A stretch of DNA of 32,239 bases from a virus, in IMG/VR virus record IMGVR_UViG_3300025853_000366, positions 1-32,239 of that record, one strand, 5' to 3'. Under the pieces are notes generated by a model. That model saw only the letters and a program-made list of their open reading frames with translations. It ran no database searches and was not told the DNA's origin. Position 1 is the first letter of the stretch. The number at the start of each line of letters is the position of its first letter. A program made the translations under genes and the position numbers. This document shows, in pieces, positions 3,243 to 21,004 of this stretch.

Positions 3243-3499
3243 CTTTGACCTCCTAATACTAATGCAACCTCAAGAGCAACACTACGATTGAAGTCTTCCT
3301 CTATCTCTTCACATACCTCTTGTTTAAATTCTGCAAGTGACTTATCACTACTGAAAGCATAATATTCAAAGTCTTTGTTTCTGAAATCAGTAATCTTGAC
3401 TTCCCAAATTGAATAAGCATACTCGCCTTGAATCGTTTTAACTACTTTGGTTAAAAAGTTTATTTCCTTTACATCTGTAATTTGTACTACATTATACAT
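3239..3499 (-). CDS. Hypothetical acidic protein (86 aa)
   Basis: I chose the ATG at 3499 (MYNVVQITDVKEINFLTKVV) over an upstream in-frame ATG, because it follows the previous stop by one base and is preceded by GGAGG within the end of that gene. The 86-residue product is soluble and predicted mixed alpha/beta, with a conserved-looking EYAYSIWEVKITD core and an acidic helix (KQEVCEEIEEDFNRS). I do not recognise the family. It is the second gene of the minus operon. Confidence 0.65.
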   Translation of the reverse strand: MYNVVQITDVKEINFLTKVVKTIQGEYAYSIWEVKITDFRNKDFEYYAFSSDKSLAEFKQEVCEEIEEDFNRSVALEVALVLGGQR

Positions 3500-3676: not shown

Positions 3677-3765
3677 ATAAAAAAAATAATTTTTTTTTAA
3701 ATTTTTTCATTTCCTTTGTTTACTTATCATACTACCCATTTCCGTATGTTATTGTTTATCATATT

Positions 3766-3846
3766 TTATCCATTTAAGCCTTGGCGATTGAACTTCGTCA
3801 AGGTTTTTTTATATTTATTTACAAACGATAACATTTAAATGGATAA
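3766..3846. repeat. 12-base inverted repeat flanking a terminator hairpin
   Basis: TTATCCATTTAA at 3766-3777 is the exact reverse complement of TTAAATGGATAA at 3835-3846. The right arm contains the ATGGATAA leader motif next to the DUF4373 gene start at 3849, and the terminator hairpin lies between the arms. Folded as RNA the arms would cover the translation start region. Confidence 0.55.
3779..3810 (+). terminator. Rho-independent terminator in the divergent region
   Basis: CCTTGGCGA (3779-3787) pairs with TCGTCAAGG (3795-3803) over nine base pairs, with one G-U, around the loop TTGAACT, and is followed by seven T. Its orientation ends plus-strand transcripts just before the gene at 3849. 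No plus-strand gene lies upstream in this intergenic region, so it may end a short leader RNA or act as an attenuator. Confidence 0.65.
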
Positions 3847-4921: not shown

Positions 4922-5458
4922 ATGGAAACAAAATTAGTACCGATTAACTCGGTAATACCTAACTCAGAGAATCCTAGATACATAAAAGAGGATAAGTTTG
5001 AAAAGCTAGTAAAGTCTATTAAGGACTTTCCTGAGATGCTTCAGTTACGACCTATTGTCATTAATGATCAGAATGTTATACTTGGTGGCAATATGAGGTA
5101 CAAAGCTTGCGTTGAGGCAGGCGTAAAAAAGATACCAGTAATAAAAGCAGATCAACTTACGCCCGAACAACAAAGGGAGTTTATCATAAAGGATAATGTT
5201 TCAGGTGGTAACTGGGACTGGGATATTATTGCAAATGAATGGAACACAGATGAACTTGAAGATTGGGGACTTGATGTTATTAATGTTGATTGGGATGAAC
5301 TTGACTATATTGATGAGGATGTTGAAAAACCTGAACTATCTAATGATCTAACTATAAAAGTTAGCGTTCCAAAAGAACTAGAAGGAGACTTATCAATGAT
5401 TCAGGAAGGATTAAGGCTTTGGCTAAATGATAATTATGTTGGATGCGAAGTTAAATAA
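4922..5458 (+). CDS. ParB/Sulfiredoxin-fold protein heading the modification cassette
   Basis: The 178-residue protein has a ParB N-terminal-like domain in residues 1-90: LVPINSVIPNSENPRY (a ParB box I-like start), then RPIVIND and ILGGNMRYKAC (the G-[GE]-x-R-xxA box). Phage proteins of this kind often sit beside or are fused to DNA-modifying enzymes and probably bind DNA or nucleotides; some relatives hydrolyse NTPs or cut DNA. The acidic C-terminus (DWDIIANEWNTDELEDWGLD) matches the longer phage form. Its last 32 bases overlap the DpdA-like gene, so translation is likely coupled and a role in the same DNA modification is inferred. Confidence 0.8.
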   Translation: METKLVPINSVIPNSENPRYIKEDKFEKLVKSIKDFPEMLQLRPIVINDQNVILGGNMRYKACVEAGVKKIPVIKADQLTPEQQREFIIKDNVSGGNWDWDIIANEWNTDELEDWGLDVINVDWDELDYIDEDVEKPELSNDLTIKVSVPKELEGDLSMIQEGLRLWLNDNYVGCEVK

Positions 5459-6362
5459 CGACAAACAATACAGAAATATACTTTGTTCCTATGCTTATCT
5501 AAGAAGTAAGAGTTCCTTCAATGATATACTTTTTGATTATGCTGATAGTGGTAAAATCAACTTAATGATTGATTCCGGAGCATTTACAGTATTTAATTCC
5601 AATGTTAAGCCTATATATGTTGAGGATTATGTTGATTGGTTGAAGCTATATGGAAAATACTCTCAGAAGTATGTTATGTTAGATGTTATAAACAATCCTA
5701 AGGAAAGTGCAATAAACTACAAGAAAATGGTTGAATCAGGATTATCGCCAATGTTTGTAATGACTATGGCTGATGAGGACTATTCAATTCTTGAGTTTCC
5801 ACTTAAAGTTAACAAACATTTATGCGTTGCAGGAGGGGTAACAAGTAAAGGAAAGTGGATTATTAAAAGATTTCAAGATATAGCAAAATTATATCCTGAA
5901 GCACTTATACACGGATTAGGTTATGTTACTTTTCCAAGTATGCTTCAGCTACCTTTATATTCAGTAGATAGCAGTAGTTGGATAGTAGGCTCACAAAAAT
6001 TTGGTCAATTGTATTGGTGGGATAATGGACTTAATCAACTTAGGTATCATGATATACTAACTCGTAAGAAAAAAATACCTGAAAGTCTTAGACTTGAGAT
6101 GCAAAGAAGCAAAATAACTCCTAAAATGTTTAGTGATTTAGAGAATCATAGAACTGATTATTCAATAGGAAGTTATCTTGGTATTAAATGTTATATCACC
6201 TATCAAAAATATTGCAAGGATAGAGGATTAGACCTTTTTTTAGCATTAAGCGGTAAGGGTCAATTCGAAAAGTATATAGGAGTAAATTATCTTATAGCTA
6301 TAAATGAATGTACTTATCCCAATTACATACAATACTTAAAAAATATTAAAGGCAAAAAATGA
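5427..6362 (+). CDS. dpdA: DpdA-like DNA-guanine transglycosylase (TGT fold)
   Basis: The 311-residue protein matches the phage DpdA-like branch of the tRNA-guanine transglycosylase superfamily. Visible markers are D49-S-G-A-F53 (equivalent to DSGGF of TGT, with the general-acid aspartate), MLDVI near D86, AGGV at 135-138, HGLG at 162-165 and VDSSSW at 180-185, where D181 is the likely nucleophile. Known DpdA proteins exchange guanine in DNA for preQ0 or another 7-deazaguanine. Genes for making that base lie just downstream. ATG at 5427 and at 5436 are both possible starts. The four-base overlap with the next gene indicates an operon. Substrate choice cannot be read from sequence. Confidence 0.82.
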   Translation: MIIMLDAKLNNDKQYRNILCSYAYLRSKSSFNDILFDYADSGKINLMIDSGAFTVFNSNVKPIYVEDYVDWLKLYGKYSQKYVMLDVINNPKESAINYKKMVESGLSPMFVMTMADEDYSILEFPLKVNKHLCVAGGVTSKGKWIIKRFQDIAKLYPEALIHGLGYVTFPSMLQLPLYSVDSSSWIVGSQKFGQLYWWDNGLNQLRYHDILTRKKKIPESLRLEMQRSKITPKMFSDLENHRTDYSIGSYLGIKCYITYQKYCKDRGLDLFLALSGKGQFEKYIGVNYLIAINECTYPNYIQYLKNIKGKK

Positions 6363-18338: not shown

Positions 18339-19403
18339 ATGTCCTACACAGATTATCCAAAGTCAGCTTCAAACAACGCAAAAAAAGCGTTGAACTACAA
18401 AGAAGAATCAGGCAATCCAAAAGGTTGTGGTACTTCTGTTGGATGGAGAAGGGCTACGCAACTAGCTAATCGTTCTCCTTTAAGCGAAGATGTTGTTAAA
18501 CGTATGGCAAGTTTTAACAGACATCGACAACATAAAGATGTTCCATATACTGAAGGATGTGGTGGTTTGATGTGGGATGCTTGGGGTGGAACTTCAGGTA
18601 TAGATTGGGCAATACGAAAGTCTAAACAAATTGACGAAGAAAAGGCATTACGAAAAATACAAGACATCAAGACTATGAACTTACCTTATAATACCAAACA
18701 AACAAACGCAAAGATAAAGTCAGTCGATGTAGATAGGAGAATAGTCGAGGGCTATTTCTCTGTATTTGACTTTAAAGATTCAGATGGTGATGTTATCCTT
18801 AAAGGAGCATACGAAAAGACTATCAAAGAGAACGGTCCTGCAGGTAAAAACAGAATTATGCACTTGTATCAGCACGACCCTCTGATGGTGCTTGGCAAGC
18901 CAACGAGCCTAATGGAAGACGAGAAGGGCGTATATTTTAAAACCATAATAACTGATACTACTCTTGGTACTGATGTTCTCAAGCTATACAAAGACGAGGT
19001 ACTTACCGAGCATAGTGTTGGTATCAATTTTGTACAAAGAGATTACTCAACTGCTGATGAAGCTTACATAGTCAAAGAAGTAAAGATGTGGGAAGGTTCA
19101 ACAGTTACTTGGGGATCTAATGAAATGGCAATCGGGGGAATGCACAAAGGCAACTCTAAGGATTTGTTTGATCAGTATAAAAAGTTGCACAAAGCCTTCT
19201 ACGATGGCACATATTCAGACGAAACATTTTTGTTAATCGAAAAACAAATACAGCACTTGGAATTAGTAATTAAAGAATCACTCCATCCTACCGAGCCGAC
19301 TCAAGTCACTCCTATTGAAGATAGAGCCGAAACTATTGCTAAAGCATTCCAAAAATTTAACAATCAACTACAAATAGAAAAGGAGTTCAAACTATGGACT
19401 TAG
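18339..19403 (+). CDS. Prohead maturation protease with N-terminal extra domain
   Basis: In this 354-residue protein, residues about 120-275 form the HK97-type prohead serine protease: VEGYFSVFDFKDSDGDVILK, QHD with H179, GKPTSL, and LTEHSVGINF with S226 as likely nucleophile. It cleaves the capsid delta domain during maturation. Residues 5-95 form a separate domain (PKSASNNAKKALNYKEESGN, GTSVGWRRATQLA, GLMWDAWGGTSGIDWA) that recurs in other phage head proteins and has no assigned function that I know. The last ten bases overlap the capsid gene. Confidence 0.87.
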   Translation: MSYTDYPKSASNNAKKALNYKEESGNPKGCGTSVGWRRATQLANRSPLSEDVVKRMASFNRHRQHKDVPYTEGCGGLMWDAWGGTSGIDWAIRKSKQIDEEKALRKIQDIKTMNLPYNTKQTNAKIKSVDVDRRIVEGYFSVFDFKDSDGDVILKGAYEKTIKENGPAGKNRIMHLYQHDPLMVLGKPTSLMEDEKGVYFKTIITDTTLGTDVLKLYKDEVLTEHSVGINFVQRDYSTADEAYIVKEVKMWEGSTVTWGSNEMAIGGMHKGNSKDLFDQYKKLHKAFYDGTYSDETFLLIEKQIQHLELVIKESLHPTEPTQVTPIEDRAETIAKAFQKFNNQLQIEKEFKLWT

Positions 19404-20623
19404 AAAAAACTATATCCGAAGGACTTGAGTCGGTGAAAGGTCACATGGATGGCTTAAAAGCTGACTTAGAGAACCGTTACGATAAACTTCAAGAAGAAGT
19501 TAAAAGTGCGGGTGTTGCTGATGAAGCAACCAAGAACGAGATCAAAAACCTTGAGGCTTTGATTTCAGGACAAAAAGACCGATTGGAAGCAATCGAAAAG
19601 TCTAACAACCGTATTGGTGGAAGCATAGCACCAATGTCAATGCAAGGTAAAATACAAGAAGCTTTAGAAAGCAAAGGCGTTCAGGATCAGATCCAAGCCT
19701 TCAAAGCAGGACAAACTTCAGGTTTTACTATGGACACCAAAGCAGTAATCACAGAAGCAGATGCCTATACTGGTGATGTTGTTCCTGCTGATTATGTGCC
19801 TGGTATGAAGTACGATCCTGAGCGAAGAGTACACGTTCGTAATTTCTTATCTACTGGTACTACTAATTCTGATAAGATCCGTTACATCAAAGAAACAAAC
19901 TTCACAGATAATACTGGAGTTGTTGCTGAGGGTGATGCTTCAGGTCAGAATGACTTTGACTTGGTTGCTACTGATGCAGTAGTTGAAAAGATCGCGGCTC
20001 ACTTCAGAGTTTCCAAAGAAGCTTTGAACGATACTGCAGGTCTTGCTACTCATATATCTACTCGAGGTATGGAGAAGTATATGAAGGAAGAAGATTCTTG
20101 GTTACTATATGATTCAACTTATGGTCTAACTGTAACTTCTACTGATTATACTCTTGACCTTTATACTGGCGATGCAGATGCACAAGAACACGATGTACTA
20201 CTTGAAGCAATCAAACAAGTAGAAAACCGTAACTTTGCTCCTTCTGCAATTATGATGTCAATTGGTCGTTTCTACGAAATGATCAGACGAAAAGATGCCG
20301 ATGGTCGTTACATCTTCCCAAATGATGTTGTATTTGGTCAACGAGTACCAGTTATTCGTGGTGTACCTATAATTGCAACCAATGCAATTAACAACACCGA
20401 TGGAAGTATCAATGACTTCCTAGTAGCTGATTTTGCACAATTAACTACCTTGTTTGATCGTGAATCAATGCAGGTACGTTTCTACGAGCAAGATCAAGAC
20501 AATGTTATCAAAGACCTTGTTACTGTTCAAATTAGTGGCCGTTTAGCTTTACCAACTTACCTACCTAACGCAGGTGCTTTTGGTAACTTTACTTCTGCCA
20601 TCACTAATGCAGGTAATTCTTAA
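19394..20623 (+). CDS. Major capsid protein (HK97 fold)
   Basis: The 409-residue protein shows the HK97 capsid layout: an N-terminal coiled coil of about 75 residues (scaffold-like delta domain: LKADLENRYDKLQEEVKSAG), then the mature part with VVPADYVPGMKYDPERRVHV and VAEGDASGQNDFDLVATDAV. A C-terminal P-domain and E-loop region includes FYEMIRRKDADGRYIF and VIRGVPIIATNAINN. The protease directly upstream and connectors downstream fit. Codon use in this gene is notably regular, as in highly expressed genes. A tandem repeat and tRNA-like element start at its stop codon. Confidence 0.92.
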   Translation: MDLEKTISEGLESVKGHMDGLKADLENRYDKLQEEVKSAGVADEATKNEIKNLEALISGQKDRLEAIEKSNNRIGGSIAPMSMQGKIQEALESKGVQDQIQAFKAGQTSGFTMDTKAVITEADAYTGDVVPADYVPGMKYDPERRVHVRNFLSTGTTNSDKIRYIKETNFTDNTGVVAEGDASGQNDFDLVATDAVVEKIAAHFRVSKEALNDTAGLATHISTRGMEKYMKEEDSWLLYDSTYGLTVTSTDYTLDLYTGDADAQEHDVLLEAIKQVENRNFAPSAIMMSIGRFYEMIRRKDADGRYIFPNDVVFGQRVPVIRGVPIIATNAINNTDGSINDFLVADFAQLTTLFDRESMQVRFYEQDQDNVIKDLVTVQISGRLALPTYLPNAGAFGNFTSAITNAGNS

Positions 20624-20656
20624 AATTGCCCAACGGTAATTCTTAAAATTGCCCAA
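20612..20656 (+). repeat. Tandem duplication over the capsid stop codon
   Basis: A 22-base unit at 20612-20633 is repeated exactly at 20635-20656 (period 23). The first copy contains the last capsid codons and TAA; the second is outside the gene. Each unit ends in TTGCCCAA, which can pair with TTGGGC at 20670-20675. The copies are identical, suggesting a recent event or selection for the TTGCCCAA arm. Confidence 0.9.
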
Positions 20657-20698
20657 GGAAGTTTGGAACTTGGGCAGGTTCGATTCCTGCCCTTCCTT
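20651..20698 (+). ncRNA. tRNA-like minihelix after the capsid gene
   Basis: AAGGAAG at 20655-20661 pairs with CTTCCTT at 20692-20698, and GGGCAGG at 20672-20678 pairs with CCTGCCC at 20686-20692 around the loop TTCGATT (20679-20685), which is the tRNA T-loop consensus. Stacked, the two stems give about 12-13 base pairs, as in the acceptor/T-arm of tRNA. Only ten bases lie where the D and anticodon arms should be, so it is not a functional tRNA. GCCCAAG (20651-20657) can alternatively pair with CTTGGGC (20669-20675). Possible relics: deleted tRNA, attachment-site core, or a structured mRNA element. Confidence 0.55.
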
Positions 20699-20716
20699 CT
20701 AACCAATTTTACTATT

Positions 20717-21004
20717 ATGCAATACAGATGTCGTAGAAACTTTAGAGAAAAAAATACGAGATACAAAGTTGGTGATCTCTACAAAGGAGATAAGGTGATG
20801 GTATCAGATCTACTTAACAGAGGTTTGATATATGAAACAAAAGAAGACAAAAGACCTTATCACAGAGATACCAAATACACCCTTGAAAAAGACGAGAATA
20901 CTAAAACTATGTATTACGTTATAAAAGGAAACCAAATAATAGATCGATTAAACAAAGCTAAGGCAAAAAAACTTGTTGAGGAATTAAACAATGGCGTTTC
21001 TTAG
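20717..21004 (+). CDS. Hypothetical protein after the capsid gene (95 aa)
   Basis: I chose ATG at 20717 (MQYRCRRNFREKNTRYKVGD); an in-frame ATG at 20663 would lie inside the tRNA-like structure. The protein is basic (20-50) and has mixed charged residues in DKVMVSDLLNRGLIYETKED and a C-terminal helix (NQIIDRLNKAKAKKLVEELN). It might be a head decoration or connector-associated protein. It overlaps the gp6-like connector by 14 bases. Confidence 0.6.
   Translation: MQYRCRRNFREKNTRYKVGDLYKGDKVMVSDLLNRGLIYETKEDKRPYHRDTKYTLEKDENTKTMYYVIKGNQIIDRLNKAKAKKLVEELNNGVS

Follow-up and report, generated by a model that had tools for sequence, protein, structure and literature searches.

What does a tRNA-like fold do directly behind the capsid gene of a virus? 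The window, the whole 32,239-nucleotide (nt) stretch of IMG/VR virus record IMGVR_UViG_3300025853_000366 analysed here, carries at 20655–20699 the 45 bases AAGGAAG-TTTGGAACTTG-GGCAGG-TTCGATT-CCTGCC-CTTCCTT-C, read directly from the sequence and starting 31 bases past the end of the capsid gene. As in tRNA, an acceptor-like stem and a T arm form a coaxial helix of 12–13 base pairs (bp) capped by a canonical T loop (TTCGANT). A preliminary description had recognized two 7-bp stems, AAGGAAG/CTTCCTT and GGGCAGG/CCTGCCC; both arms exist, but C20692 is claimed by each of them, so the helix is either 13 bp (7 + 6) or 12 bp (6 + 6) plus an A:T pair. The insert between the acceptor and the T stem, put at ten bases in that description, is in fact 11 nt, TTTGGAA followed by CTTG. 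The features of the locus are as follows.

19394–20623, plus strand: major capsid gene of HK97 type, upstream of the element (phrog_10 major head protein, E 7e-38).
20655–20661, plus strand: 5′ strand of the acceptor-like stem, AAGGAAG, pairing with 20692–20698; double changes in 6 of 7 pairs across A2 and A3.
20662–20668, plus strand: mini D arm, TT-TGG-AA, a 2-bp stem with an NGG loop; based on pair counts in 50 elements whose bulge was not imposed.
20669–20672, plus strand: linker CTTG, variable in sequence and length among relatives.
20673–20678, plus strand: 5′ strand of the T stem, GGCAGG, pairing with 20686–20691; 100% of cells paired in A2 and A3.
20679–20685, plus strand: canonical tRNA T loop, TTCGATT; TTCGA is invariant and positions 59 and 60 vary as in tRNA.
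20686–20691, plus strand: 3′ strand of the T stem, CCTGCC; pairing kept across A2 and A3.
20692–20698, plus strand: 3′ strand of the acceptor-like stem, CTTCCTT; pairing kept across A2 and A3.
20699, plus strand: near-invariant C past the helix, a C in nearly all elements listed; it takes the C74 position when the helix is read as 12 bp, and 3′ processing is predicted around here.
20717–21004, plus strand: downstream gene of 95 amino acids, function unknown and without a PHROG match; its ATG lies 18 bases past the element.

Standard searches pass over this element: in the window, ARAGORN calls no tRNA at its position and Rfam yields no matching family, mascRNA-menRNA included, and a model scan for the element finds exactly one copy in the whole window. 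The folding energy is modest (z −1.9 for the element alone and −3.2 with its flanks) and by itself only suggestive; the element stands far above chance because it is conserved with compensatory changes in relatives. Its fold has a possible competitor in the window, an 8-bp pairing of TGCCCAAG (20650–20657) with CTTGGGCA (20669–20676), the upstream half of which differs in most of the capsid clade.

That clade was assembled from a search with the capsid protein, which gave 79 loci from viral contigs. The element lies just 3′ of the capsid gene in all 64 relatives with at least 63% capsid identity and readable sequence after the stop (L008–L072 minus the incomplete L029), in line with the earlier view that an acceptor/T-arm mimic sits right after this gene and is not a decayed remnant. 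Acceptor pairs change together within the clade (AAGGATG/CATCCTT, AAGGAAA/TTTCCTT and AAGGAAC/GTTCCT), and the T stem keeps its pairing through the variants GGCAGG, GCAGGG, GGGAGG, GAGCGG, GGGCGG, GGGTGG and GTAGGG, while TTTGGAA and TTCGA remain constant. In 13 distant capsid relatives (33–38% identity; L074–L086) the element is missing, and many of the stretches read there have a terminator-like hairpin, often with a T run, at its usual place. Among phage records, identities to the window capsid do not exceed about 32%.

A second conserved hairpin, which goes beyond the preliminary description, spans the capsid stop codon and is duplicated in the window.

20612–20630, plus strand: stop-codon hairpin, copy 1, GGTAATT-CTTAA-AATTGCC, with the capsid stop TAA (20621–20623) in its loop.
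20635–20653, plus strand: stop-codon hairpin, copy 2, in tandem with a period of 23, directly before the element.

A stem of at least 6 bp is present here in 39 of the 43 distinct upstream stretches of the capsid clade, against 13% of shuffles, and compensated variants occur. The tandem duplication (20612–20653, GGTAATTCTTAAAATTGCC) is shared between the window and L002–L005 and L007, five of the six first-found relatives; L006 and other relatives have a single stop-codon hairpin. Two coding interpretations of this region were rejected. A short open reading frame through the element (ATG TTT GGA ...) has lost its ATG in the compensated variants AAGGAAG, AAGGAAA and AAGGAAC, and readthrough of the capsid stop fails on inspection because relatives differ by one base in spacing and do not keep the frame.

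The bases around the GG form an arm of their own. A mechanical search that left the bulge unconstrained finds them as a 2-bp stem with an NGG loop, the stem occurring as TT/AA, CT/AG, CA/TG, TA/TA, AA/TT, AT/AT or GA/TC. Of the 50 elements found without any constraint on the bulge, 44 retain the outer pair, against a shuffled mean of 16 and maximum of 26, and 42 retain the inner pair, against a shuffled mean of 23 and maximum of 36. In Gordonia phages this D arm can reach several pairs, for example GCTC-TGGT-GAGC. The 11-nt insert, for which the preliminary description had offered no structure, thus holds a covarying mini D arm that displays the GG. In the tRNA elbow, G18 and G19 of the D loop dock on the T loop (PMC4810234). 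By analogy, the GG of the mini D arm would dock on the T loop of the element and rebuild an elbow, with G20665 and G20666 as the probable equivalents of G18 and G19.

The element turns out to be one member of a widespread class of phage RNAs. In looser pattern scans, dozens of unrelated phage contigs show this architecture, and every stem sequence has been replaced. In other phages it lies 3′ of genes for SPFH proteins and of small hypothetical genes, which argues against the capsid-specific role considered earlier. A free-stem pattern (TTTGGAAN{6,12}GGTTCGANTCC) returned at least about 20 further distinct elements with unrelated acceptors, on contigs of up to 238 kb; acceptor pairing was a selection criterion for these matches, and by our estimate about one such match is expected by chance. 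A second pattern, in which TAACC...GGTTC and the T loop were fixed and the bulge and the other pairs left free, matched 29 contigs, nearly all with the same fold, and the bulges of these matches (for example CTTGGAGCAAG, TATGGTAGCAAG, AAAGGAACGAG and ACGGTTCAAG) all contain GG. The letters of the T loop were imposed in the wide scans, and its invariance there is not evidence. Across 38 diverse members, 98.2% of cells are paired, and covariation reaches 0.916; shuffles give 0.183 and slid structures no more than 0.21. The check for compensatory changes in related phages that had been proposed at the outset is therefore strongly positive, for both stems.

Most members have only 10–15 nt from the acceptor to the T stem, and at the elements tested ARAGORN called no tRNA, there being neither an anticodon arm nor a cloverleaf. 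True tRNAs that entered a loose TTTGGAA scan through their Gln and Pro anticodon loops were removed by acceptor pairing and ARAGORN. BLAST matches in Gram-positive, Streptomyces and Yersinia phages were likewise discarded, as they extend barely beyond the T arm, and in two cases ARAGORN makes a partial tRNA call that overlaps the match. The element was not found in Maribacter phage Panino or in two crAss-like SPFH loci. In one array phage (L341, G038), the reverse-strand elements at 3460, 7426 and 8389 have the T loops ATCGTTT or ATCGTCT, in which positions 54 and 58 switch together from T/A to A/T, as if covarying.

The model gave 46 matches in ten multi-copy stretches, all of them intergenic and in one direction per stretch. 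Copies per contig number 8 in G038, 7 in G020, 6 in G019, 5 in G021 and 4 in G022, which are lower bounds because viral contigs are fragments; many other contigs have a single copy. For those elements with an identified upstream gene, the stop of that gene is usually no more than about 10 bases away or overlaps the element (T|AACC); the next start usually follows within about 50 bases. In the 84.5 kb of the cultured Gordonia phage VanLee, a strict descriptor picks out 13 copies, against 0.05 expected by chance, all 13 on one strand and each within an intergenic gap of one operon. When 3 relaxed matches are added, an element is present in 16 of the 17 gaps of at least 78 bases, with a 362-base gap set aside. 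In VanLee, as in G019–G022 and G038, sense-strand elements separate the genes of one transcription unit. Many VanLee elements, in the 12-bp register, end in a G1–C72 pair followed by A and C. Behind most of the VanLee elements stands either a hairpin or a GGCACCCAAC-type conserved leader, then a likely ribosome-binding site, then the start of the next gene. Apart from one tRNA, the genome paper of this phage lists no RNA element (PMC8320454).

A short perfect hairpin also stands behind many array elements in L355, L356, L340 and L342, and in Gordonia phages GGCACCCAAC is conserved between that hairpin and the ribosome-binding site. On an Ignavibacteria MAG contig, possibly a phage contig or a prophage, two elements (L266:3308–3351 and 3761–3804) each overlap the TAG stop of the preceding gene.

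We consider it probable that the class consists of anticodon-less tRNA mimics that punctuate polycistronic phage mRNA through cleavage by RNase P and RNase Z, because the phage elements keep exactly the features that these enzymes use and have dropped the anticodon arm. RNase P binds the stack of acceptor and T arm, measuring from the elbow (PMC4919913), and the elbow is also recognized by RNase Z (PMC4810234). In mascRNA, which has a reduced D arm with two conserved G, both enzymes cut through elbow mimicry (PMC11693755). An element within a polycistronic transcript would stack its acceptor stem on its T arm (12–13 bp), with the GG of the reduced D arm docking on the T loop, and so would fold like the part of a pre-tRNA, from the elbow to the helix end, that RNase P and RNase Z measure. 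RNase P would then cut on the 5′ side and RNase Z or an exonuclease on the 3′ side, so that the messages before and after the element come apart, and nearby short hairpins, before the element in the capsid clade and after it in the array phages, may protect the new ends. At the window locus, such cuts would define where the capsid mRNA ends and where the downstream message begins. Among the roles first suggested was the recruitment of RNase P and RNase Z for cleavage of the mRNA behind the capsid frame; it is the best explanation here, with cleavage itself as what we infer.

Several observations count against punctuation. The first bases of the element are shared with the stop codon in many phages, and a 5′ cut there would damage the stop of the upstream message. 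The 3′ side of the elements is C followed by T, A or G, not CCA; in array phages the elements are restricted to one genome region; and at the window locus the alternative 8-bp pairing could compete with the fold.

A rival reading is a role in translation, with the tRNA mimic engaging the ribosome or translation factors near the stop and controlling termination, recycling or re-initiation on the next gene. Stops overlap or shortly precede most elements, the next start is usually close, and the capsid clade has a hairpin across the stop codon itself. Such a role is nonetheless unlikely: distances and frames from stop to element to start vary freely, the anticodon arm is missing, and the next gene in VanLee comes with its own hairpin, conserved leader and likely ribosome-binding site.

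We find it quite unlikely that the elements act uncut, as stable barriers at mRNA 3′ ends that block exonucleases or tune transcription termination. A compact, GC-rich fold would suit such a barrier, as would the terminator-like hairpins that take the place of the element in many of the distant capsid relatives. However, in the window and in most of its relatives a C and then mixed A/T come after the helix, with no direct T run, and most elements of the class have no T run behind them; a plain hairpin would need neither the invariant T loop nor the GG and covarying D arm; and presence in nearly every operon gap would mean repeated termination.

A decoy or binding site for a tRNA-binding protein (a tRNA-modifying enzyme, an anticodon-nuclease defence or a Ro-like protein), rather than a processing signal, is very improbable, given that single copies in many contigs and a strictly intergenic position speak more for a role in cis and that no Ro-like gene is found among the window proteins scanned, which cover part of a window that is itself a fragment. 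Two gene neighbourhoods point towards it: in VanLee, the gene for a Ro-like RNA-binding protein (L359:23471–25087, equal to VanLee 65751–67367) adjoins the only tRNA gene, and a TROVE gene lies near the SPFH gene of the crAss-like phage cr106_1, which is a relative of the SPFH gene of one carrier.

The sampled bacterial genomes essentially lack the element. Its exact 33-base core occurs in none of 84,980 prokaryote genomes. A loose GTDB-wide scan gave 35 raw matches, about the chance expectation, of which 5 have structure and one of these is identical to a viral element (L274/L199). Among 395 Bacteroidota genomes, with the best 15 first-look candidates per genome scored, only the seed genome was recovered. 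Although the T loop and T stem look like the 3′ half of a tRNA, the idea of an attachment core copied from the 3′ end of a host tRNA, as the preliminary description had entertained, or of a fragment with that origin, has next to no probability. It is refuted for the class as a whole by the absence of the core from the 84,980 genomes, stem letters that change with pairing kept, arrays of many copies and a complete 5′ acceptor strand, and no integrase is found among the ten window proteins scanned.

In the reading we favour, punctuation by RNase P and RNase Z, the principle is a variant of tRNA mimicry and punctuation, and parts of it are found in several known systems. The acceptor/T-arm minihelices used as model RNase P substrates are laboratory constructs; the phage elements would be their natural equivalent, extended by a mini D arm. 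Such minihelices consist of the tRNA part that RNase P measures (PMC4919913). The phi80 M3 RNA and the P1/P7 C4 antisense RNA are also phage RNAs, cut by host RNase P, which is known to cut mRNAs as well (PMC11143913). Unlike the elements, they are single special RNAs. We know of no conserved intergenic arrays of M3 or C4 RNAs.

Mitochondrial tRNA punctuation (Ojala 1981, as cited in PMC4394434) similarly places tRNA-shaped marks between the genes of a polycistronic transcript; mitochondria use real tRNAs for this, whereas the phage marks, which have no anticodon arm and only a small part of a D arm, are not tRNAs. The tRNA-like structure of the plant virus TYMV is a viral mimic of the tRNA elbow too (PMC4810234) and, according to a reference listed in PMC11143913, an RNase P substrate, but such structures lie at the genome 3′ ends of RNA viruses, have a pseudoknotted acceptor and are aminoacylated. 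The nearest Rfam model to one VanLee element is mascRNA-menRNA (RF01684), which matches over its full length with E 0.04 and 26.8 bits, against a cut-off of 42.5. This tRNA-like 3′ module likewise has an acceptor stem, a reduced D arm with two G, a T arm and an elbow; it belongs to animal lncRNAs, measures about 60 nt and has an anticodon-like stem, whereas the phage elements are about 45 nt long, lack that stem, lie between protein genes of DNA phages and score below the threshold. No family in Rfam 15 reaches threshold for the element class, and a search of the open-access literature found no description of it.

On balance, we lean towards a broader proposal, that DNA phages of several bacterial phyla carry a dedicated, previously undescribed family of mini-tRNAs for operon punctuation, which hijack host RNase P and RNase Z to produce separately controlled messages, as a counterpart of mitochondrial tRNA punctuation. 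If true, this would amount to a general phage system of RNA-processing punctuation built on the tRNA part that RNase P measures, and would account for the long conserved gaps of phage operons over which standard tRNA finders pass. The elements would also serve as minimal, naturally occurring substrates of RNase P and RNase Z and as compact parts for cutting multi-gene transcripts; to our knowledge, no smaller natural tRNA mimic has been described. Because arrays occur in cultured Gordonia phages, the idea is testable now.

Elsewhere in the window, a gene at 5427–6362 resembles queuine tRNA-ribosyltransferase (phrog_887), which suggests 7-deazaguanine DNA modification or tRNA modification.
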